Positions 30,898 through 51,099 of a stretch of 64,000 bases of DNA are shown piece after piece. The DNA is taken from NCBI GenBank assembly GCA_013298025.1, contig JAAFJE010000018.1:1-64000 (forward strand), in the 5' to 3' direction. The notes beneath the pieces were generated by a model, which was given only the letters and a program-made list of their open reading frames with translations, was not told the DNA's origin and ran no database searches. How positions within the stretch are numbered: the first letter of the stretch is position 1; the number at the start of each line of letters is the position of its first letter. The translations under genes were made by a program, and so were the position numbers. Origin of the DNA: Cytophagales bacterium (GTDB lineage Bacteria; Bacteroidota; Bacteroidia; Cytophagales; Spirosomataceae).

Positions 30898-33800
30898 CTA
30901 GCGTATAACTTGTATTTTTTGAAGTAAAGAAACACCCGATGCTGTTGTAAGGCGGATGAAATACATACCCGATTGCTCTATTTTCATCTCAAATACATTT
31001 GTGCCTTGCCTTGCTGTCACGGTCGTTGACTGCACCACCTCGCCCGTCATGCTTACAACTGAAACCTGGGCGGTTTCACTCAAAAGAGCATCATAGTGTA
31101 GTCCAACCGTCCCATCAGACGGACTAGGATAGGCTTTAAACGACGCAGTTGCTGGTTGTTCGGAGATAGCGATAGGCATATCAGCCACTACTTGTGTTTG
31201 ACTTGCCGCCTGTGTTCCTACCGTGCTGTTGCTTACTTTAGGTGTTACCGTCACCACTGCCGTATTGTTGCTCGTTGGTGTCACCGTGCCACAAACATTT
31301 GTCACTTTACTCAAAGTATAAGTCGTAGTGGTGCTTGGACTAACCGTGTGCGTATAAGGACTGCTCGTAATACCTGTGACACTTTGCTCATTGATGGTAA
31401 ATGACCAAGGGCTTGTGCCACTTAGGTTGACCGTTAACTTTCCACTATTACTAGCAATAATACTTTGCGTTCCCGTCAATGTGCCTGTTGGTAAACTTTG
31501 TATCAAAATATTTGCTCCATTGTCTGTTCCCACCACCTGCGGACTTGAAGAAACCACTCGAAGGCGATACAACGAGCCACCTTGCGTACTCGTTGGAATA
31601 ATGGATTCGATTGCCCCTGTATTGGCTAGACTGCTTAGTTTACCAATTACCACAGGTTTAGCAAAACTACCTAAAGCATCTGATAATTCTACCGAATAAA
31701 CATTATCACTTTTAAACGTTCCTGTCGAAGTAAAAGCTACACTTACTTTACTGCCCTGACAATAGCTTGTACTCGCCAATTTGTTGGTTAATTGCTGTGG
31801 TAAAACCGTCACCACTGCCGTATTGTTGCTTGTCGGTGTCACTGTGCCACAAACATTCGTTACCTTGCTCAAAGTATAAGTCGTGGTGGCAGTTGGGCTA
31901 ACCGTATGCGTATAAGGACTGCTCGTAACGCCTGTGACATTCTGGTCATTGATGGTAAATGACCAAGGACTTGTACCACTTAGGTTGACCGTTAACTTTC
32001 CACTATTACTAGCAATGATACTTTGCGTTCCTGTCAATGTGCCTGTTGGTAAACTTTGTATCAAAAGATTTGCTCCATTGTCTGCTCCCACCACCTGCGG
32101 ACTTGAAGAAACCACTCGAAGGCGATACAACGAGCCACCTTGCGTACTCGTTGGAATAATGGCTTCGATTGTGCCAGTATTGGCTAGACTGCTTAACTTG
32201 CCGATTACCACAGGTTTAGCAAAACTACCCAAGGCATCTGATAATTCTACCGTGTAAACATTATCACTCTTGAATGTTCCTGTCGAAGTAAAGGCTACAC
32301 TTACTTTACTGCTCTGACAATAACTTGTACTCGCCAATTTGTTCGTCAATTGTTGTGGTAAAACCGTCACCACTGCCGTATTGTTGCTTGTCGGTGTCAC
32401 TGTGCCACAAACATTCGTTACCTTGCTCAAAGTATAAGTCGTGGTGGCAGTTGGGCTAACCGTATGCGTATAAGGACTGCTCGTAACGCCTGTGACATTC
32501 TGGTCATTGATGGTAAATGACCAAGGACTTGTACCACTTAGGTTGACCGTTAACTTTCCACTATTACTAGCAATGATACTTTGCGTTCCTGTCAATGTGC
32601 CTGTTGGTAAACTTTGTATCAAAAGATTTGCTCCATTGTCTGCTCCCACCACCTGCGGACTTGAAGAAACCACTCGAAGGCGATACAACGAGCCACCTTG
32701 CGTACTCGTTGGAATAATGGCTTCGATTGTGCCAGTATTGGCTAGACTGCTTAACTTGCCGATTACCACAGGTTTAGCAAAACTACCCAAGGCATCTGAT
32801 AATTCTACCGTGTAAACATTATCACTCTTGAATGTTCCTGTCGAAGTAAAGGCTACACTTACTTTACTGCTCTGACAATAACTTGTACTCGCCAATTTGT
32901 TCGTCAATTGTTGTGGTAAAACCGTCACCACTGCCGTATTGTTGCTTGTCGGTGTCACTGTGCCACAAACATTCGTTACCTTGCTCAAAGTATAAGTCGT
33001 GGTGGCAGTTGGGCTAACCGTATGCGTATAAGGACTGCTCGTAACGCCTGTGACATTCTGGTCATTGATGGTAAATGACCAAGGACTTGTACCACTTAGG
33101 TTGACCGTTAACTTTCCACTATTACTAGCAATGATACTTTGCGTTCCTGTCAATGTGCCTGTTGGTAAACTTTGTATCAAAAGATTTGCTCCATTGTCTG
33201 CTCCCACCACCTGCGGACTTGAAGAAACCACTCGAAGGCGATACAACGAGCCACCTTGCGTACTCGTTGGAATAATGGCTTCGATTGTGCCAGTATTGGC
33301 TAGACTGCTTAACTTGCCGATTACCACAGGTTTAGCAAAACTACCCAAGGCATCTGATAATTCTACCGTGTAAACATTATCACTCTTGAATGTTCCTGTC
33401 GAAGTAAAGGCTACACTTACTTTACTGCTCTGACAATAACTTGTACTCGCCAATTTGTTCGTCAATTGTTGTGGTAAAACCGTCACCACTGCCGTATTGT
33501 TGCTTGTCGGTGTCACTGTGCCACAAACATTCGTTACCTTGCTCAAAGTATAAGTCGTGGTGGCAGTTGGGCTAACCGTATGCGTATAAGGACTGCTCGT
33601 AACGCCTGTGACATTCTGGTCATTGATGGTAAATGACCAAGGACTTGTACCACTTAGGTTGACCGTTAACTTTCCACTATTACTAGCAATGATACTTTGC
33701 GTTCCTGTCAATGTGCCTGTTGGTAAACTTTGTATCAAAAGATTTGCTCCATTGTCTGCTCCCACCACCTGCGGACTTGAAGAAACCACTCGAAGGCGAT

Positions 33801-36800
33801 ACAACGAGCCACCTTGCGTACTCGTTGGAATAATGGCTTCGATTGTGCCAGTATTGGCTAGACTGCTTAACTTGCCGATTACCACAGGTTTAGCAAAACT
33901 ACCCAAGGCATCTGATAATTCTACCGTGTAAACATTATCACTCTTGAATGTTCCTGTCGAAGTAAAGGCTACACTTACTTTACTGCTCTGACAATAACTT
34001 GTACTCGCCAATTTGTTCGTCAATTGTTGTGGTAAAACCGTCACCACTGCCGTATTGTTGCTTGTCGGTGTCACTGTGCCACAAACATTCGTTACCTTGC
34101 TCAAAGTATAAGTCGTGGTGGCAGTTGGGCTAACCGTATGCGTATAAGGACTGCTCGTAACGCCTGTGACATTCTGGTCATTGATGGTAAATGACCAAGG
34201 ACTTGTACCACTTAGGTTGACCGTTAACTTTCCACTATTACTAGCAATGATACTTTGCGTTCCTGTCAATGTGCCTGTTGGTAAACTTTGTATCAAAATA
34301 TTTGCTCCATTGTCTGCTCCCACCACCTGCGGACTAGAAGAAACCACTCGAAGACGATACTGCAAAGCACCTTGCGTACTTGTAGGAATAATGGCTTCGA
34401 TTGTACCTGTATTGGATAGGCTCGATAACTTACCGATTACCACAGGTTTCGCAAAACTACCCAAGGCATCTGATAATTCTACCGAATAAACATTATCACT
34501 TTTAAACGTTCCTGTCGAAGTAAAAGCTACACTTACTTTGCTTCCCTGACAATAACTTGTACTCGCCAATTTGTTGGTTAATTGCTGTGGTAAAACCGTC
34601 ACCACTGCCGTATTGTTGCTTGTCGGTGTCACCGTGCCACAAACATTTGTCACCTTGCTCAAAGTATAAGTCGTGGTGGTGCTTGGACTAACCGTATGCG
34701 TATAAGGACTACTCGTAACGCCTGTGATATTTTGGTCATTGATGGTAAATGACCAAGGACTTGTACCACTTAGGTTGACCGTTAACTTTCCACTATTACT
34801 AGCAATGATACTTTGCGTTCCCGTTAGTGTGCCTGTTGGTAGCCCTATGAGCGTTACATCGCTCCCATTATCGAATCCCGTAGTTGTTGGGTTCGACGCT
34901 ACAACCCTTACCCGATACTTTGTGCCAAGGGTAAGGTTGGTAGGAATTGTGGCGGCAATCGTGCCTTTGGTGGCCTCACTGCTGAGTGTACCAATGGTGA
35001 CGGGTGTACTAAAACTACCGTTGGCATCCGACAACTGTACAGTATAAATATTGCCTTTGGCTACATTACCCGTCGTGGTAAATGACACATCTACTTTTGT
35101 TCCCAAACAAAACTGATTCGTTGCCAGTGGGCTGGTCGCTATTTGTGTAAGGTCGCCAGCCGAAAAACGAACCATGCCATGTGCATACATCAACCACATT
35201 TTCCCTTTAGCATCCATTTGTACATCTTTAAAATTATCTGCTAAAGGAAAATCTGCTAATTTTTGCCAACTTGTACCATCGTATTTCAACACACGAGCGT
35301 TATCGAACACATACAAATTATTGGCATTATCGAAGGTAAAATTGTTGGGATTACTGAGCAAGGGTACATTCTTGTAATTATACAATTTCCAAGTACTTCC
35401 GTCGTAGCTTGCAATGCCTCTGATATAGCTTCCATCTGAAAGTGTTACCCACAACAATCCTTTGGTATCTAATTTATATTGATAATAAAATCTTCCTGCA
35501 AAAGGGGTATTAGTATTGTTGAATGAGGTAAAAGTTTTAGCCGCCAAATCGTACCTCCTCAACTCCCAAAGCCCTGTACCCCAATCATATACTTGCACCC
35601 AAGCATACTGACTATTCCAGACGGGTGTGTAGTAATATTTATTGCTTTCATTAAATTTGATAAGAGTCGTGATTTTACCTGATTCAATTTTTGCCAACAC
35701 ATAATAGCCTCCGCCAGCATAGCCATAGACTATTTTTGAATTCATATCGAAACTAGAAGGGGATACATCATCGGGGTTGCTCAAATCGACACTCGACATT
35801 TTAGCCCCTGTTTGTTGATTTAGTTGTAATAAATTATAGGTTGTTTTCGGAAAAACGCCACTGTATTCGATGCGTTTACTCATCGTATTAATCATCCAAA
35901 GAGCGTTGTCGTTATTGGTTACACTCAGCATCGAAAGCTGATTGCCAACCAAGCCATTCGTACTTGCTCTATCGAACACTTTCAAATTCAGGGTATCTGG
36001 GTCTATTTTGACCAATCCTTGTGCATTTTTTACAAAAATCCCTCTTGCTCCAATCGCCAACGAACCAAGGTCTCGGTTGAATGTAGGTTTGTTGTCGTTA
36101 TTAAAAAAGCTCCAAGCCGACGAAAGGACGGTTGTACCCGTAGTAAATTGGGTTGTTTGCTGAAACATCAATCCTTGTGGCAAATTTCGCATGGCGGCAA
36201 ACGCCTCACTCGATTCAAACCATTCTTCTACTTTCAGATAATAAGTTGTATTCGGCGTTAGGCTTTGTGCCATGCAGACATAATTGTAAGAAAGAAATTG
36301 ATTCGGAGCAAAAGTTTTGACCAACACAGGACTAGAAAAATCACTTTTGGTCGAAAGCGTAAACTTCACCGTAGCTCCTGCCAAAACGCTATTGCCTGTA
36401 TAAGTAATAGGAAACGTTAACGGAACATTGGTGCCACTATTGGGAATATTGATAGCACTACTCACGGCAGGTTTCAGCCAAAACGTATTTACCTCCGACC
36501 ACGCACTTTGACCACTGGCATTCACCGCTCGCACACGCCACAACAACTGATTATAGTTGGGTGTGGTAAAAGTGCAACTATTGGTTGTGGTAGTAAGGCT
36601 TTTATTAGGATTTTTGAAATAAGGGTCGCCAAAAGTAGTTACTTGTACTTCGTAGCTTGTGGCATTGGCAGCTGCATCAAACTTGAGGGTTAAACTTGTA
36701 TTTTGAGCAATATCACCCGCTTGGTTTTGCGGATAAAGCAATTTGGGCGGTATCAAACCCGTGGCATTCACTTGTATTTTGGCAACATTCGACCAAGGCG

Positions 36801-37851
36801 TTGTATTGAAAGCATTGATTGCTTTTACCCGTACAAAATACTGTTGGCCAGGCTTAAATCCGCCAAAACTATAGCCTTGAATATAGGTGGTATCACTCAG
36901 CAGTTTAACACTAAAATCAGCTACAGAGGCTATTTCGAGCAAGTATTTTTCGGCAGAAACAAGCGGTTGCCATACAAAAGTGGATGTATTATTTAAGGTA
37001 TAGTTGGCAGGCAACACGGGTGCAGACGTAAGACTTGCTACCTGTGCAAACTTGCTGATGGCGTGTTGCTGCATCACAGCCTGACATAAAGGGTGAAAAG
37101 TAGGTGCATACGAGCAATAACTCATAATGCTCCCTCTGGTTTTTTCAAGGGCATTTTCATAGCAATTCGACTCGGCAGGATAACAATGGTCTATGACACC
37201 GCCAGCCCAAGAACAGTTTTGGGTATGTGGCGAACCAAAATTATGCCCCAATTCGTGTGCAACCACCATCAAGCCTCTCGAATCGCCATTTTCTCCCCAA
37301 GGCGATACGCTTTCTACGCCTCCCAGATATGCCACGCCACCAGCACCCGAAAAGCCTTTTGTCACCAAATACATTACTTTGTCATATTGGTTACGAACAG
37401 CCTTTAAGTTGGCGTTGTTGGCCCACGTATCTGCTACCAAACCCAACATTTTGAATATATCCGATACGCCTTTGTAGGGGTCTTTGGCACTATCTTTCCA
37501 AATATTGATGTACGTAACAACCAATTGGGTATTGATTTCTTTTTCATAAATTTTTGAAATACGCTCAATTTGCTTATAAGCTTCGTATTTAATCAAGGTA
37601 GTATCTTGGTTAAATAAAGCGTAAGTATCAGAGTCGATGTCTATAGCAATACGGCATATATATCGCTGGCTCGCATCTATTCTAGCGTTTGCCCTACTCT
37701 TCATCCATTGAGGGGCTTTTTGCATTTGTTCGAGAATTTCGGCTGGCACAACGGCATCATTTACGCCACAAGCCATTGTACGGGTGTTTTCTTGTGCCAG
37801 CGTCTGTACCAAAGGCAAACACAACAACATGATGAGTAGAAGTTTTTTCAT
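30898..37851 (-). CDS. Giant secreted metzincin metalloprotease with FN3/Ig-like repeats and T9SS tail
   Basis: This 2317-aa exported protease is on the minus strand. A signal peptide (MKKLLLIMLLCLPLVQTLAQ) is followed by a reprolysin-like metzincin domain: HELGHNFGSPH at His199, Glu200, His203 and His209, with the Met-turn at GSIMSYC (Met243). Fibronectin III-like modules follow (about residues 280-600), then a propeller-like stretch (about 640-900, e.g. LDTKGLLWVTLSDGSYIRGI). Seven 186-residue units follow (about 905-2205), each a YC-x-G/S-x-KVSVAFTSTG module and a GTLTGTQSIIASNSGK Ig-like module. The last 80 residues form a type IX sorting domain (FKAYPSPSDGTVGLHYDALL, GMYFIRLTTASG, LLQKIQVIR). 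Export via T9SS and cell-surface or free location follow from that tail. Substrates are unknown. Confidence 0.88.
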   Translation of the reverse strand: MKKLLLIMLLCLPLVQTLAQENTRTMACGVNDAVVPAEILEQMQKAPQWMKSRANARIDASQRYICRIAIDIDSDTYALFNQDTTLIKYEAYKQIERISKIYEKEINTQLVVTYINIWKDSAKDPYKGVSDIFKMLGLVADTWANNANLKAVRNQYDKVMYLVTKGFSGAGGVAYLGGVESVSPWGENGDSRGLMVVAHELGHNFGSPHTQNCSWAGGVIDHCYPAESNCYENALEKTRGSIMSYCSYAPTFHPLCQAVMQQHAISKFAQVASLTSAPVLPANYTLNNTSTFVWQPLVSAEKYLLEIASVADFSVKLLSDTTYIQGYSFGGFKPGQQYFVRVKAINAFNTTPWSNVAKIQVNATGLIPPKLLYPQNQAGDIAQNTSLTLKFDAAANATSYEVQVTTFGDPYFKNPNKSLTTTTNSCTFTTPNYNQLLWRVRAVNASGQSAWSEVNTFWLKPAVSSAINIPNSGTNVPLTFPITYTGNSVLAGATVKFTLSTKSDFSSPVLVKTFAPNQFLSYNYVCMAQSLTPNTTYYLKVEEWFESSEAFAAMRNLPQGLMFQQTTQFTTGTTVLSSAWSFFNNDNKPTFNRDLGSLAIGARGIFVKNAQGLVKIDPDTLNLKVFDRASTNGLVGNQLSMLSVTNNDNALWMINTMSKRIEYSGVFPKTTYNLLQLNQQTGAKMSSVDLSNPDDVSPSSFDMNSKIVYGYAGGGYYVLAKIESGKITTLIKFNESNKYYYTPVWNSQYAWVQVYDWGTGLWELRRYDLAAKTFTSFNNTNTPFAGRFYYQYKLDTKGLLWVTLSDGSYIRGIASYDGSTWKLYNYKNVPLLSNPNNFTFDNANNLYVFDNARVLKYDGTSWQKLADFPLADNFKDVQMDAKGKMWLMYAHGMVRFSAGDLTQIATSPLATNQFCLGTKVDVSFTTTGNVAKGNIYTVQLSDANGSFSTPVTIGTLSSEATKGTIAATIPTNLTLGTKYRVRVVASNPTTTGFDNGSDVTLIGLPTGTLTGTQSIIASNSGKLTVNLSGTSPWSFTINDQNITGVTSSPYTHTVSPSTTTTYTLSKVTNVCGTVTPTSNNTAVVTVLPQQLTNKLASTSYCQGSKVSVAFTSTGTFKSDNVYSVELSDALGSFAKPVVIGKLSSLSNTGTIEAIIPTSTQGALQYRLRVVSSSPQVVGADNGANILIQSLPTGTLTGTQSIIASNSGKLTVNLSGTSPWSFTINDQNVTGVTSSPYTHTVSPTATTTYTLSKVTNVCGTVTPTSNNTAVVTVLPQQLTNKLASTSYCQSSKVSVAFTSTGTFKSDNVYTVELSDALGSFAKPVVIGKLSSLANTGTIEAIIPTSTQGGSLYRLRVVSSSPQVVGADNGANLLIQSLPTGTLTGTQSIIASNSGKLTVNLSGTSPWSFTINDQNVTGVTSSPYTHTVSPTATTTYTLSKVTNVCGTVTPTSNNTAVVTVLPQQLTNKLASTSYCQSSKVSVAFTSTGTFKSDNVYTVELSDALGSFAKPVVIGKLSSLANTGTIEAIIPTSTQGGSLYRLRVVSSSPQVVGADNGANLLIQSLPTGTLTGTQSIIASNSGKLTVNLSGTSPWSFTINDQNVTGVTSSPYTHTVSPTATTTYTLSKVTNVCGTVTPTSNNTAVVTVLPQQLTNKLASTSYCQSSKVSVAFTSTGTFKSDNVYTVELSDALGSFAKPVVIGKLSSLANTGTIEAIIPTSTQGGSLYRLRVVSSSPQVVGADNGANLLIQSLPTGTLTGTQSIIASNSGKLTVNLSGTSPWSFTINDQNVTGVTSSPYTHTVSPTATTTYTLSKVTNVCGTVTPTSNNTAVVTVLPQQLTNKLASTSYCQSSKVSVAFTSTGTFKSDNVYTVELSDALGSFAKPVVIGKLSSLANTGTIEAIIPTSTQGGSLYRLRVVSSSPQVVGADNGANLLIQSLPTGTLTGTQSIIASNSGKLTVNLSGTSPWSFTINDQNVTGVTSSPYTHTVSPTATTTYTLSKVTNVCGTVTPTSNNTAVVTVLPQQLTNKLASTSYCQGSKVSVAFTSTGTFKSDNVYSVELSDALGSFAKPVVIGKLSSLANTGAIESIIPTSTQGGSLYRLRVVSSSPQVVGTDNGANILIQSLPTGTLTGTQSIIASNSGKLTVNLSGTSPWSFTINEQSVTGITSSPYTHTVSPSTTTTYTLSKVTNVCGTVTPTSNNTAVVTVTPKVSNSTVGTQAASQTQVVADMPIAISEQPATASFKAYPSPSDGTVGLHYDALLSETAQVSVVSMTGEVVQSTTVTARQGTNVFEMKIEQSGMYFIRLTTASGVSLLQKIQVIR
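31242..35130 (-). repeat. Seven tandem 558-bp repeats inside the giant protease gene
   Basis: The period is exactly 558 bp (186 codons), as shown by repeated blocks beginning at about 31376, 31934, 32492, 33050, 33608, 34166 and 34724. The four central copies (blocks at 31934, 32492, 33050 and 33608) looked identical base for base, and the identity runs into the next unit to about 34299. The two end units are diverged, as expected for an array that expands from its middle. The outer limits are approximate. Confidence 0.9.
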
Positions 37852-40479: not shown

Positions 40480-42006
40480 TTATTTTCTTGGTATTACCAC
40501 CTTAAAACGTCCTATTTTTTGCTTATCAATACCATTCTTTTTAGAAAGCATTGAGGCTTGTGGATTCGTCCTGATTTGTTTAAGTAGATTAAGTTTACGC
40601 AAATAGGTAACTTCTTTGTCATAAGTGTCTCTATCGTTTGTATTCATAGCTGAATAAATATCAATAGGTGATAACTCCTTGTCATTCATTCCTGCAACCA
40701 AAATCCTTTTATGTATTGGACTTAACTCAAAATCAGAAAACAAACGCAAAAACTCCTCTTGTATTGATGTAAAGTCGGATTTATTAAACAACGTTACAGT
40801 AAACCAAACCGTATTTGAATATAATTTAGGCTTTTGAAGTTCGTTTTGTTGCATTAGCGTAAAAATACGTTTCATGCCTTCGCCCATTTCACGCATCGTT
40901 TGGTTTACTTTCAAGGTGTAGGCAATTTTAGCATTTCTGGAATCATGACGGTTATCTAAGGCTTCCAAATCTTGAACAGTAAGTGTAGAGAGCAAAGCAC
41001 CAGGACTTTTGATTTCCATACGGTCATTAAAAATATGTATTTCAATGCCTCTGCCTTCCGCTGCATAATCTCTGTGTGCTATTGCATTGATTAAAGCCTC
41101 TTTACAAGCGTCTTCGGGATAAATAAACTTTTGTTTGAATTGTGCATTTGCGGTAAATTCTGTTTTGTATGCCAAATACGGACGCATTGATTCCCAAGAT
41201 TTGAATATTAACTCATAAATATTACCTTGCACAAACTCATCACTAATCACATTGTATTTTTCGCCTGACAATAACTCTGTACCTGCAATTTTAATAAAAC
41301 GTATTTGGCAACGTGGATGCCATCTTTGTATATCTTTTGCAAATAATAAAACCGCTGCTCTTGTAAGTCGCAAGCCATTAGTAGCATATTGGGCTAAACC
41401 TAAATGTTGTAAATATCTTTCAACAGTATAGCCTTTCAAATAACTGTCTGCCAAAGATTGTAGTAAGGGGATGTCTAAATCTGATACCGTTGCTCCGTCA
41501 ACGAATTGCCTATCATATTCTCTTGACTTTATTTCTTGTCGGTCAAATTGCAATTTTTTAACGTTAGCGGGTACAGTCTGCCGTTTTTCATTACGACGCA
41601 TGACTCTGCCGTCTCTTAATTGGTATATTTCAGCACTTCCTTTATCCACTTGAAAAAACAAAATGACATTTCCTTCAATGGTGGCTTTTAATTTATACAC
41701 CATTGGTAATTCTTGTCCGTCATAAACGTGTGTTTTGGGTGAGTTCAGCATCATCTCAATATCTTCATCCGAATGTGGTACGCCCGTAATGGTAGTATCG
41801 TCTTCTACGCCAATGATTATTTCCCCACCATCTGTATTGGCAAACGCTACCAACGCTTCTGCAATATCTTCGCATATTTTTTTTGCAAGACGGGGCTTTT
41901 TATTATCAGGTTTCCCTTCTAATGCCAATTTAAACTCCCTAAAATCACTTTCTCCGACAAGAATGGAATTTTTGATTCTTTCTTGTAAAATCAATATGTC
42001 TGTCAT
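40480..42006 (-). CDS. AlbA_2/Schlafen-type ATP-binding protein, putative transcriptional regulator
   Basis: This 508-aa protein starts with an AlbA_2 (Schlafen-type) domain: ESDFREFKLALEGK, then ALVAFANTDGGEIIIGVEDD. A middle domain follows with RLTRAAVLLFAKDIQRWHPR, and then a HATPase_c_4 region: CKEALINAIAHRDYAAEGRG, IEIHIFNDRMEIKSPGALL. The C-terminus (residues about 420-508) has a winged-helix-like ending. Such proteins are widespread and mobile; many are linked to stress response or defence, but the function is undefined. It is followed by the attC-like segment in which the orphan gene ends. Confidence 0.8.
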   Translation of the reverse strand: MTDILILQERIKNSILVGESDFREFKLALEGKPDNKKPRLAKKICEDIAEALVAFANTDGGEIIIGVEDDTTITGVPHSDEDIEMMLNSPKTHVYDGQELPMVYKLKATIEGNVILFFQVDKGSAEIYQLRDGRVMRRNEKRQTVPANVKKLQFDRQEIKSREYDRQFVDGATVSDLDIPLLQSLADSYLKGYTVERYLQHLGLAQYATNGLRLTRAAVLLFAKDIQRWHPRCQIRFIKIAGTELLSGEKYNVISDEFVQGNIYELIFKSWESMRPYLAYKTEFTANAQFKQKFIYPEDACKEALINAIAHRDYAAEGRGIEIHIFNDRMEIKSPGALLSTLTVQDLEALDNRHDSRNAKIAYTLKVNQTMREMGEGMKRIFTLMQQNELQKPKLYSNTVWFTVTLFNKSDFTSIQEEFLRLFSDFELSPIHKRILVAGMNDKELSPIDIYSAMNTNDRDTYDKEVTYLRKLNLLKQIRTNPQASMLSKKNGIDKQKIGRFKVVIPRK

Positions 42007-46223: not shown

Positions 46224-48200
46224 TTATTTGAGGTATTTGTCAAACCATTTAATATATCGCTCAAACCTATCTATTTGATAACTAGGCACTGTAATGCCAT
46301 GAAACTGGTTTGGATACACAATCAATTCGGTAGGAATGCCCAAAACTTTGAGGGCTTGGTACATTTGTTCGCTGCCTACGGCTGGTACGTTGTGGTCGCT
46401 TTCGCCTACCATAAATTGCGTAGGTGTTTTGATTTTATCGGCTTTCAAAAATGGGTACGATAGTTTTACATATTTATCGAAATGCTTCCAAGGCGAGCCT
46501 ATTTCGTGTTCGTATTGTAAAATGTATTGGTCAACGCCATACATCGACGAAATCATGGCTACGCCTGCCCCACTGGCTGCTGCCTTGAAACGGGTGTCGG
46601 TAGCAATGGTGTAGTCGGTCAGAATACCGCCATAACTCCAGCCTCCAATGCCCAGTTTAGTGGCATCGGCAATGCCATTTTTTACCACATAATCGGCTGA
46701 ACCTAAAATATCTAGCACTTCTTTATTGCCCCAATCGCCACTGATAACTTGGCAATAGGCTAATCCTCTGCCATTACTTCCTCGGTAGTTTACCGCAACT
46801 ACGTTGTAGCCAGCGGCAGCCAACATTTGGCGTGATAAATCGAAACTGTATTCATCTTGTGCAACAGGCCCACCATGAATAAAGAAAATGGTGGGTTGCG
46901 GACTTTTATCTTTTCCTACGGCACGATAAAGAATATTGGAAACTACTGTTCCATCTTTGCTTTTAGAACTAAATCCTTCTACGTCTGCCAATTGAATTTT
47001 GCTAAAAAATGACTCATGGATGCTCGTAATACGTCTGAAATTGTTTTGCTCAATGGCATAAATTTCGGCGGGTCGTTGTGGCGTGCTTACTATAGCCAAC
47101 CACGAGCCTGTAGGATGACTTTCTAAAGACGATACAATATATTGTCCCTGTGTTTGGCGTTGAAACTGCCCTGAAAGGCTATAACTAGCCACATAACGCT
47201 CACGGTCGTCGGTAACGGTGACATAAATTTGCGTGCCATCTTTCGACCACTTGGGCGTATTGACGGGGCGGTCTAAACTGCTACTCAAAAGGGTATTTGT
47301 GCCTGTTTGCACATCCACAACCGACAAAACAGCTTGGTCGTACATAATGTAATCGCTGGCAGCAGTGGTACGCAAATAGGCAATTTTATGTCCATCTGGG
47401 CTCCAAACGGGGGCATAATCTCGACCTGTCCAAGTCGTGAGAGCTTTGATTGGGGCATGAGCTTTGGCTTCTACCACATAAATATCGGTGTTTTCGTTGC
47501 GGTCGGGGTCGGGTGTGCGGTTGCTTACAAAAGCAATATATTTCCCATCGGGCGACCACGCCAAAGCATTTTCTTCATAAATCCCTGTGGTGATGGTATC
47601 AAGTTTTTCGGTGGCAAGGTCGAAAAGGTAAATATGACTTGGCTTGTTTTCGAGGTAGCCTTCTATGTCTTTTTTAATTTGATAGCGGTCTATGTAAATC
47701 GGGCGAGGCGTTTTAGGCTTGGCCGAATCGGGGTCTGCCTGAATCACAAGGGCTATTTTTTTGGCATCAGGCGACCACGCATATTCTACGAGCGAGCCTG
47801 TACTTTTGATTTTGGTCAATTGCTTGGCTTCTCCTCCACGGCGGTCGAGCAAGTACAATTGGCTTTGGGTGGCTCCGTTGCGGGTCGAAACAAAAGACAG
47901 GTATTTGTTGTCAGGACTCCACCTCACCTGCGATTCTCCTTCTGTCGAATACGTGAGTTGCACTTGTTGCGAGCCATCCCAACTGCTCATCCAGATGTCT
48001 GACGAGCGTTTGTTTTTACTCGAATCAACCGACGAAACCGTATAAGAAACCCATTGCCCATCAGGCGATATTTTGGCATCGGCTATGGATTTGATTTTAT
48101 ACACATCTGTCGGACGAATACTACGTTTGTTTTGGCTACTTTGTGCTTTTAAACCTAAAGGCAAACAAGCTAAAAAGAAGAAAAACGTTTTTTTTAACAT
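46224..48200 (-). CDS. S9-family prolyl-oligopeptidase-type peptidase
   Basis: This exported peptidase (658 aa) has a signal peptide MLKKTFFFFLACLPLGLKAQ. The N-terminal beta-propeller has WD40-like/PD40 repeats (ISPDGQWVSYTVSSVD, WSPDNKYLSFVSTRN, WSPDGKYIAFVSNRT, WSPDGHKIAYLRT). The C-terminal alpha/beta hydrolase domain carries Ser522 in GGWSYGGILT, Asp in VGESDHNVPAVG and His in YPNQFHGITVP, the S9 triad. It is the dipeptidyl or acylaminoacyl-peptidase type, not further resolved. It begins a minus-strand group with M1 and amidohydrolase genes. Confidence 0.93.
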   Translation of the reverse strand: MLKKTFFFFLACLPLGLKAQSSQNKRSIRPTDVYKIKSIADAKISPDGQWVSYTVSSVDSSKNKRSSDIWMSSWDGSQQVQLTYSTEGESQVRWSPDNKYLSFVSTRNGATQSQLYLLDRRGGEAKQLTKIKSTGSLVEYAWSPDAKKIALVIQADPDSAKPKTPRPIYIDRYQIKKDIEGYLENKPSHIYLFDLATEKLDTITTGIYEENALAWSPDGKYIAFVSNRTPDPDRNENTDIYVVEAKAHAPIKALTTWTGRDYAPVWSPDGHKIAYLRTTAASDYIMYDQAVLSVVDVQTGTNTLLSSSLDRPVNTPKWSKDGTQIYVTVTDDRERYVASYSLSGQFQRQTQGQYIVSSLESHPTGSWLAIVSTPQRPAEIYAIEQNNFRRITSIHESFFSKIQLADVEGFSSKSKDGTVVSNILYRAVGKDKSPQPTIFFIHGGPVAQDEYSFDLSRQMLAAAGYNVVAVNYRGSNGRGLAYCQVISGDWGNKEVLDILGSADYVVKNGIADATKLGIGGWSYGGILTDYTIATDTRFKAAASGAGVAMISSMYGVDQYILQYEHEIGSPWKHFDKYVKLSYPFLKADKIKTPTQFMVGESDHNVPAVGSEQMYQALKVLGIPTELIVYPNQFHGITVPSYQIDRFERYIKWFDKYLK

Positions 48201-50100: not shown

Positions 50101-51099
50101 ATGACTTATCAAAAAGATTTTACCTATGTTACGGGTACCGAACCACACCGTATTCGTACAAGAGAAATTATCAAGGCTCATCCAGAGGTAAAAAAACTCA
50201 TTACCAAAAACCCCATGACTTTCGTATGGATATTGGCTTGTGTATCGCTACAAATTGGCATGGCGTACCTTGTCAAAGACCAAGCTTGGTGGGTAATTTT
50301 GGCGGCGGCGTGGGTAGTTGGGGCTTTTCCAACGCATACGCTTTTTGTGTGTATTCATGAGTCGGCTCATAACCTTATTTTCAAAAAATCTTCTTGGAAT
50401 GTGTTCGCTGGAATTATCGCTAATTTTCCTTCGTTAGCACCTACGGCTATTTCGTTCAAAAATTATCACCTCAAGCACCATGCTTTCCAAGGTGTACACG
50501 AGCTAGATGCCGATTTGCCTGATTTCTGGGAAGCTCGCCTAATCAATAACTACTTCATTGGCAAGGCTTTATGGTTATTATTGTTTCCGTTCTTCCAAGC
50601 TATCAGAACGCTTCGTTGCTTAGAATTAGCCGTAATCGACCGCTTTGTAGTGATGAACATTGTATGCCAATTGGCTTTCGATGCCTTGATTGTTTACACA
50701 ATGGGCTGGGCTGCATTGGGCTACATGGGTGCTAGTTTTATGTTCTCGGTAGGCTTGCATCCGCTTGGTGCACGCTGGATTCAAGAACATTATTTGGTAT
50801 TGGATAAAAACCAAGAAACTTATAGCTATTATGGTCCCCTCAATGGCATCAATATGAACGTAGGCTACCACAACGAACACCACGATATGCCTTCTGTGCC
50901 TTGGAACAACCTGCCTAAATTGAAGGCTACTGCTCCCGAATTTTACGATAACTTGAAATACCACACGTCTTTTACCAAACTGTTCTTTACGTTTTTGTTT
51001 AGCCAAGAGATAGGTCTATTCTCTCGTATCGTAAGAAAAGAAAGAGGTAAAGTAGGACTCGACGATAACTCAACGCCAGACGTTCAACTGTTGAAATAG
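50101..51099 (+). CDS. Dihydroceramide delta-4 desaturase-like fatty acid desaturase
   Basis: This 332-aa integral-membrane di-iron desaturase has the three histidine boxes HESAH (86-90), HLKHH (123-127) and HNEHH (257-261), plus a His in IQEHYLVLDK. The spacing and the surrounding blocks match the eukaryotic DEGS1/Des1 sphingolipid desaturase from memory: YVTGTEPHRIRTREIIKAHP, then SFKNYHLKHHAFQG with DADLP, and GLHPLGARWIQEHY, TYSYYGPLN, NVGYHNEHHDMP, EFYDNL. Four hydrophobic segments are predicted. Bacteroidota make sphingolipids, so a C4-C5 ceramide double bond is plausible; acyl-lipid desaturation remains possible. It is alone in its transcript, with its own promoter and terminator. Confidence 0.85.
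   Translation: MTYQKDFTYVTGTEPHRIRTREIIKAHPEVKKLITKNPMTFVWILACVSLQIGMAYLVKDQAWWVILAAAWVVGAFPTHTLFVCIHESAHNLIFKKSSWNVFAGIIANFPSLAPTAISFKNYHLKHHAFQGVHELDADLPDFWEARLINNYFIGKALWLLLFPFFQAIRTLRCLELAVIDRFVVMNIVCQLAFDALIVYTMGWAALGYMGASFMFSVGLHPLGARWIQEHYLVLDKNQETYSYYGPLNGINMNVGYHNEHHDMPSVPWNNLPKLKATAPEFYDNLKYHTSFTKLFFTFLFSQEIGLFSRIVRKERGKVGLDDNSTPDVQLLK

Follow-up and report, generated by a model that had tools for sequence, protein, structure and literature searches.

A DES-family gene in a Cytophagales genome carrying SulA, with a possible role in the modification of sulfonolipids

Enzymes of the DES family oxidise the C4/C5 position of N-acylated 2-amino-3-hydroxy bases, and flavocristamide A, RIF-2 and halocapnine are unsaturated sulfonolipids. 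The enzymes bCerS and CerR have been described for Caulobacter (PMC11087976). In PMC9304779, Lys281 is given as the residue that separates SulA from Spt, which has alanine at this position, and according to PMC3463246 the sulfonolipids include a signal that triggers multicellularity in choanoflagellates. Bacterial DES were not named in the titles and abstract openings listed by the literature searches, a body of text in which subscription journals are thinly covered and from which absence is unproven.

The window, which is the whole stretch of 64,000 nucleotides that was analysed, contains a gene for a DES-like protein whose features are given in Table 1. The protein scored 47.3 bits against PF08557 (cut-off 23) and 83.2 bits against PF00487 (cut-off 29.7). 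PF08557 was matched in none of 14 control genomes and PF00487 in 5 of the 14. Within the genome to which the window belongs, PF08557 matched the window gene only and PF00487 matched at seven places, made up of the window gene, four further genes and another that matched as two pieces. This last gene (G000:C34:147612-148193, pieces L199 and L200), one piece of which contains an internal TAA, is probably a broken gene or the result of a sequencing error. Both PF08557 and PF00487 were present at E <= 0.001 in all 54 members of the alignment used here (A3), 28 of which had been collected via PF08557 and 25 by protein similarity alone. Besides the histidines of the three boxes, His79, His220 and His230 showed no variation among the 54 aligned sequences.

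Table 1. Position in the window of the DES-family gene and of the domains and motifs of its product
Feature	Position	Strand	Evidence
DES-family (sphingolipid Delta4-desaturase-like) gene, 332 aa, ATG start, stop included	50101..51099	+	ORF, Pfam domains, 54-row alignment, DEGS1 comparison, AF2 model
Lipid_DES N-terminal domain PF08557, residues 4-38; sets DES apart from other desaturases	50110..50214	+	Pfam
FA_desaturase domain PF00487, residues 63-284	50287..50952	+	Pfam
His box 1, HESAH (H86, H90)	50356..50370	+	sequence; histidines invariant in 54 rows
His box 2, HLKHH (H123, H126, H127)	50467..50481	+	sequence; histidines invariant in 54 rows
His box 3, HNEHH (H257, H260, H261), within NVGYHNEHHD	50869..50883	+	sequence; histidines invariant in 54 rows

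An earlier note, made from the letters of the DNA, had described three His boxes and the blocks TYSYYGPLN, NVGYHNEHHD and EFYDNL, and all of these are present in the protein, the blocks occupying residues 240-248, 253-262 and 280-285. Its further claim, that the likeness to DEGS1 extends over the whole length of the protein, was borne out by comparison with an uncurated human DEGS1 sequence, which gave 128 identical residues of 321 (approximately 40%) at an E-value of 1e-78, covering residues 4-321. Of the remaining desaturases in this genome, the four genes L194, L196, L197 and L198 were compared, with the two-piece gene L199/L200 left out. The best of these, L196, was 22% identical to the window protein over 268 residues (E 5e-5), while L194 and L198 aligned as short fragments with E-values of 0.025 or worse and L197 gave no match. 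On the strength of its sequence the gene is classed as a genuine member of the DEGS/DES Delta4-desaturase family and not as a plain acyl desaturase.

The structure of the protein was predicted with AF2 from the 54-row alignment, giving a model with a mean pLDDT of 89.8 and a pTM of 0.89; an earlier AF2 model from 6 sequences had a pLDDT of 45 and was set aside as poor. All structural matches of the model were distant. Two chains from chloroplast FtsHi motor complexes were matched with E-values of 5e-5 and 6e-5, TM-scores of 0.63-0.64 on the query length and 16% identity. FtAlkB was matched with an E-value of 0.002 and a TM-score of 0.55, and human SCD with an E-value of 0.09 and a TM-score of 0.35. 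Matches at E <= 0.001 with 13-15% identity were obtained to six proteins of giant viruses, which carry the names of fatty acid desaturases or of a cytochrome-b5 protein. A sequence search of solved structures gave no relative of DES and returned chance matches only, the best having an E-value of 1.7. As modelled, the likeness of the window protein to known membrane di-iron enzymes is at the level of the fold only.

The genes around the window DES, between positions 46224 and 53121, encode an S9 peptidase, an alpha-L-fucosidase, an AP_endonuc_2 TIM-barrel protein and an EVE-domain protein, and no lipid gene was found among these scanned neighbours. Elsewhere in the window, positions 30898-37851 of the minus strand hold an ORF of 2317 aa whose product has a metallopeptidase domain of the M12 type as well as a Por secretion tail. 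This ORF contains seven direct repeats with an exact spacing of 558 bases (186 codons), and over 300 bases the six other copies show 84-92% identity to the reference copy. A protein of 508 aa that combines a Schlafen AlbA_2 domain with a RecG-C-terminal-like HATPase domain is encoded at 40480-42006, also on the minus strand.

A scan of genome_contigs matched at least 595 stretches, at least 562 of which encode relatives of the window protein. Among the best 80 of these at least 562 relatives, 79 had Bacteroidota titles, including Arcicella, Aquirufa, Spirosoma, Hymenobacter, Mucilaginibacter, Chitinophaga, Saprospiraceae and others. The remaining one (L040) was titled Thermoanaerobaculia; it shares the gene order of the ceramide-type clusters described below and is therefore taken to be mis-binned. 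PF08557 was found in 18 of 59 relatives of the window genome, itself included, and in 30 of 296 genomes of the phylum. Scans of viral_contigs gave no DES homologue, and one viral match (L160) was an unrelated protein that carried the pattern by chance.

The gene neighbourhoods of DES were compared in a set of 117, made up of 80 named loci together with 37 stretches from other genomes and uneven in length. The DES gene could be placed in 113 of these; L047, L048, L051 and L055, for which ORFs had been called in the wrong frame, were left out of the neighbour count. When seven genes on each side were considered, the most widely common neighbours occurred at 17 of the 113 loci, in Spirosoma-like kin, and clustering of the 113 neighbourhoods showed no conserved partner of DES beyond close relatives. 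A SulA gene was absent from all 117 neighbourhoods, some of which are short stretches. An Spt-family gene was located two to three genes from DES in six of the 117 (L031, L032, L033, L034, L036 and L040), titled as three Saprospiraceae, two Bacteroidetes/Bacteroidota and the one Thermoanaerobaculia. The gene order in L031-L034 was FA-hydroxylase-like, Spt, GNAT, NAD epimerase and DES. In L036 the DES gene precedes the epimerase and in L040 no epimerase was seen beside DES, so that a CerR-like epimerase adjoins DES in five of the six.

The four partner genes of L032 matched PF04116 (FA-hydroxylase-like, E 7e-20), PF00155 (Spt), PF00583 (GNAT, E 1e-6) and PF01370 (epimerase, E 2e-30), and its Spt scored 648 bits on NF047600, over the cut-off of 640. 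Read by class and adjacency only, the cluster GNAT is a putative bCerS and the epimerase a putative CerR. The six DES proteins were 70-76% identical to the window protein, and four of them fell with it in an 11-row clade (support 98) in a tree that included the desaturases of the window genome; the branching order inside this clade was unsettled. An FA-hydroxylase-like gene lies upstream of Spt at all six loci (PF04116 in L032), and since the cluster combines such a gene with DES it may yield ceramide that is 2-hydroxylated as well as unsaturated. Spt-GNAT clusters were also seen in two genomes that lack DES, at L171 (G034, which has SulA elsewhere) and L189 (G066). In G066 tblastn detected adjacent genes for an Spt-family enzyme (47%) and a GNAT (37%), and the ceramide cluster therefore also exists without DES.

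The window genome, which is 99.97% complete, was searched for Spt with the TIGR01825 and NF047600 profiles and none was found. TIGR01825 matched two full-length enzymes and gave three weak partial matches. The first enzyme (G000:C28) scored 588 bits against Alistipes SulA (7u7h), 532 bits against 28eh, named 'Cysteate-C-fatty acyltransferase', and 228 bits against Sphingobacterium Spt (3a2b), and on the Spt model NF047600 it reached 294 bits against the cut-off of 640. In the alignment it has lysine at the position equivalent to Lys281 (yAKaLPMP, compared with fSAsM in Spt). The second (G000:C45) was nearest to BioF with 354 bits, under the cut-off of 426. Judged by these scores and residues, G000:C28 is assigned as a SulA/cysteate acyltransferase and G000:C45 as a BioF-like enzyme. 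The proposal of the earlier note that this organism makes sphingosine-type lipids is not supported by this outcome; the spt genes for which it had proposed a search were not found in the own genome, so that the lack of sphingolipid synthesis genes, which the note had named as counting against its reading, holds for the key enzyme, and the ceramide-type clusters show that other Bacteroidota DES do lie beside them.

DES, SulA, GNAT and FA-hydroxylase genes are on four separate contigs of the window genome, and the downstream neighbours of SulA were not seen because the gene lies less than 800 bases from a contig end. The GNAT (G000:C14:12335-13456) is 29% identical to the cluster GNAT and is a candidate N-acyltransferase for capnine. 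The FA-hydroxylase (G000:C8:71028-71654) is 37% identical to that of the cluster.

Co-occurrence was examined in the near kin as the 59 relatives of the window genome, itself included, with a threshold of E <= 1e-95 for SulA and with NF047600 for Spt. DES was present in 18, SulA in 57 and Spt in 4, all four over the NF047600 cut-off. Every one of the 18 DES-bearing relatives had SulA and none had Spt, and the four with Spt were without DES, a non-overlap which with only four Spt genomes is not significant (Fisher p 0.30). The main observation in the near kin is the retention of DES by 18 genomes that have no Spt. Four members of the genus to which the window genome belongs likewise contained SulA and DES, with Spt not found. 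DES was missing from 39 of the 57 SulA-bearing relatives and is therefore not required for sulfonolipids. A GNAT related to that of the cluster was found at E <= 1e-5 in 54 of the 59, mostly at 24-33% identity, with copies at 46-49% only in the four Spt relatives, where they adjoin Spt. A cluster-related FA-hydroxylase was found in 29 of the 59.

The 30 DES genomes of the phylum comprised 10 of the window's class, 8 of family code f41 and 12 of f34/f52. All 10 of the class carried SulA and 6 had Spt over the cut-off, while G000, G007, G202 and G206 had no NF047600 match at E <= 1e-120. The 8 genomes of f41 all carried SulA together with an Spt-family match at E <= 1e-120 that was under the curated cut-off, and the 12 of f34/f52 had no SulA at the threshold and an Spt-family match of the same kind. 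An Spt-family match at this level was thus obtained in 26 of the 30, 20 of the 26 being under the curated cut-off. The same level was reached by 223 of the 296 genomes and by the control Bacillus subtilis, and since such a match alone is no proof of Spt the neighbourhoods were read. In all 12 genomes of f34/f52 the Spt-family enzyme was 44-47% identical to the Spt of L032 and 30-34% identical to SulA, and it adjoined a GNAT, 40-44% identical to that of the cluster, as well as an epimerase resembling CerR (29-32%). Spt lay beside GNAT, with an epimerase nearby, in all three of the further genomes read (G155 and G307 of the class and G246 of f41). From these neighbourhoods it follows that DES mostly accompanies a ceramide-type pathway. 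At L188 (G348) the GNAT gene next to Spt is itself split over two overlapping frames, by a frameshift or a sequencing error.

Within the window's class, represented by 73 genomes, Spt over the cut-off was present in 6 of the 10 with DES compared to 4 of the 63 others (Fisher p 0.0002, uncorrected for kinship). Spt is therefore commoner with DES in the class, and the window's lineage, with SulA and without Spt, is an exception among DES genomes. SulA was present in 70 of the 73, which leaves no contrast for an association of SulA with DES.

The best explanation, held here with moderate confidence, is that the DES-family enzyme oxidises C4-C5 of the N-acyl-capnine base in this organism and of ceramide in organisms that have Spt. 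The window enzyme would be a membrane di-iron enzyme of the DES family whose preferred type of substrate is an N-acylated 2-amino-3-hydroxy long-chain base, and its oxidation of C4/C5 would introduce a trans double bond, with C4 hydroxylation also possible. In Bacteroidota with Spt the substrate would be dihydroceramide, and in the window's organism and those relatives that also carry DES, all with SulA and no Spt, it would be the N-acyl-capnine sulfonolipid. In a cell that makes no base by way of Spt, the sulfonolipid would be the obvious substrate. Clean differences between the DES of the window clade and those of the clusters (16 and 6 sequences, respectively) were confined to 12 alignment columns, and both substrates may therefore be accepted.

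The small number of differing columns also agrees with a reading in which the enzyme is a dihydroceramide desaturase in this organism too, supplied with sphinganine or ceramide taken up from eukaryotes or neighbouring bacteria, or with the product of an unrecognised Spt. Such an activity is favoured by the 70-76% identical homologues in ceramide-type clusters and their place in the same 11-row clade (support 98), and it would fit the excess of Spt among the DES genomes of the class (6/10 against 4/63) and the Spt-family matches in 26 of the 30 DES genomes of the phylum. It is nevertheless regarded as unlikely, as a genome of 99.97% completeness holds no third full-length Spt-family enzyme and Spt occurs in 0 of the 18 DES relatives, the lack of DES in the four Spt relatives being not significant (p 0.30).

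The enzyme might instead retain only the ancestry of DES and act on another lipid, such as a phospholipid acyl chain, an ornithine- or glycine-type aminolipid or a 3-hydroxy acyl group. The gene stands alone at most loci and no functional test of bacterial members was found in the literature searched, both of which are compatible with this view, but it is made improbable by the DES N-terminal domain kept in 54 of 54 sequences, by the position of close homologues in ceramide clusters and by the low similarity to the four other desaturases of the genome. Similarly improbable is a DES2-like C4-hydroxylase that forms a 4-hydroxy (phyto-type) base instead of a double bond, for which it speaks that DES-family enzymes include bifunctional desaturase/hydroxylases. 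The stretch that follows His box 1 (NLIFKKSSWN) has a sequence unlike that of the uncurated DEGS1 and two residues fewer.

A second type of bacterial DES was found to be nearer to the eukaryotic enzyme. In f41 a protein search found DES in 9 of 92 genomes, five with the L123 type (67-100% identity to L123) and four with more distant proteins (41-45%). L123 was 48.7% identical to the uncurated DEGS1 and 43% identical to the window protein. This divergent type comprises L123-L126 and L202, and L123-L126 are each nearer to the uncurated DEGS1 than to the window protein. Among 15 aligned rows the combination of [SA]GHFIxEHY with IPG was seen only in L123, L125 and DEGS1, the other 12 having GARWIQEHY or a one-letter variant of it with IPW or VPW (ISW in L144).

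DEGS1 joined the L123 type with a support of 100/99 in a 63-row tree, in which the one eukaryotic sequence was the uncurated DEGS1, on a long branch, and from which the outgroup of own-genome desaturases was omitted. An arrangement holding f41 together without DEGS1 was rejected (p-AU 0.002), a test weakened by the group having been named after an earlier tree. In the tree with the own-genome desaturases as outgroup the root is unreliable, the outgroup not forming one side of any branch and having very long ends. These results suggest an exchange between bacteria and eukaryotes, in one direction or the other. The movement of the gene between the two, as raised by the earlier note, is plausible in that a few bacterial members group with DEGS1, a placement that depends on one uncurated eukaryotic sequence.

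It is conceivable, if rather doubtful, that a bacterial ceramide-cluster DES was redeployed in the Cytophagales to form a 'sulfono-sphingosine', and that the eukaryotic Delta4-desaturase arose within the Bacteroidota family. The results describe a widespread bacterial family of the Delta4-desaturase type, which some lineages have in ceramide-type clusters and others in genomes that carry SulA and no Spt. If active on capnine lipids, the window protein would be a candidate enzyme of sulfonolipid modification, and the family bears on the source of the eukaryotic enzyme that makes sphingosine.

When compared with the described systems, the window protein is closest to DEGS1/Des1, with which it shares PF08557 and PF00487, the three His boxes, the TYSYYGPLN and NVGYHNEHHD blocks and the overall length. 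It differs from the uncurated DEGS1 in having GARWIQEHY for SGHFIAEHY and VPW for IPG, and DEGS1 is eukaryotic whereas the window protein is from a bacterium in whose genome Spt was not found. Plain membrane acyl-lipid desaturases have PF00487 and His boxes like those of the window protein, but they have no PF08557. The DES genes of the ceramide-type clusters (L031-L034, L036 and L040) adjoin Spt, GNAT and mostly epimerase genes, whereas the window DES stands alone. The sulfonolipid pathway of SulA and CapB, as set out in the available parts of PMC9304779 and PMC10191378, names no desaturase, and its SulA is also present in the window genome. N-acyl-capnine has the same 2-acylamino-3-hydroxy head as ceramide, and differs from it in that a sulfonate at C1 replaces the C1 hydroxyl.
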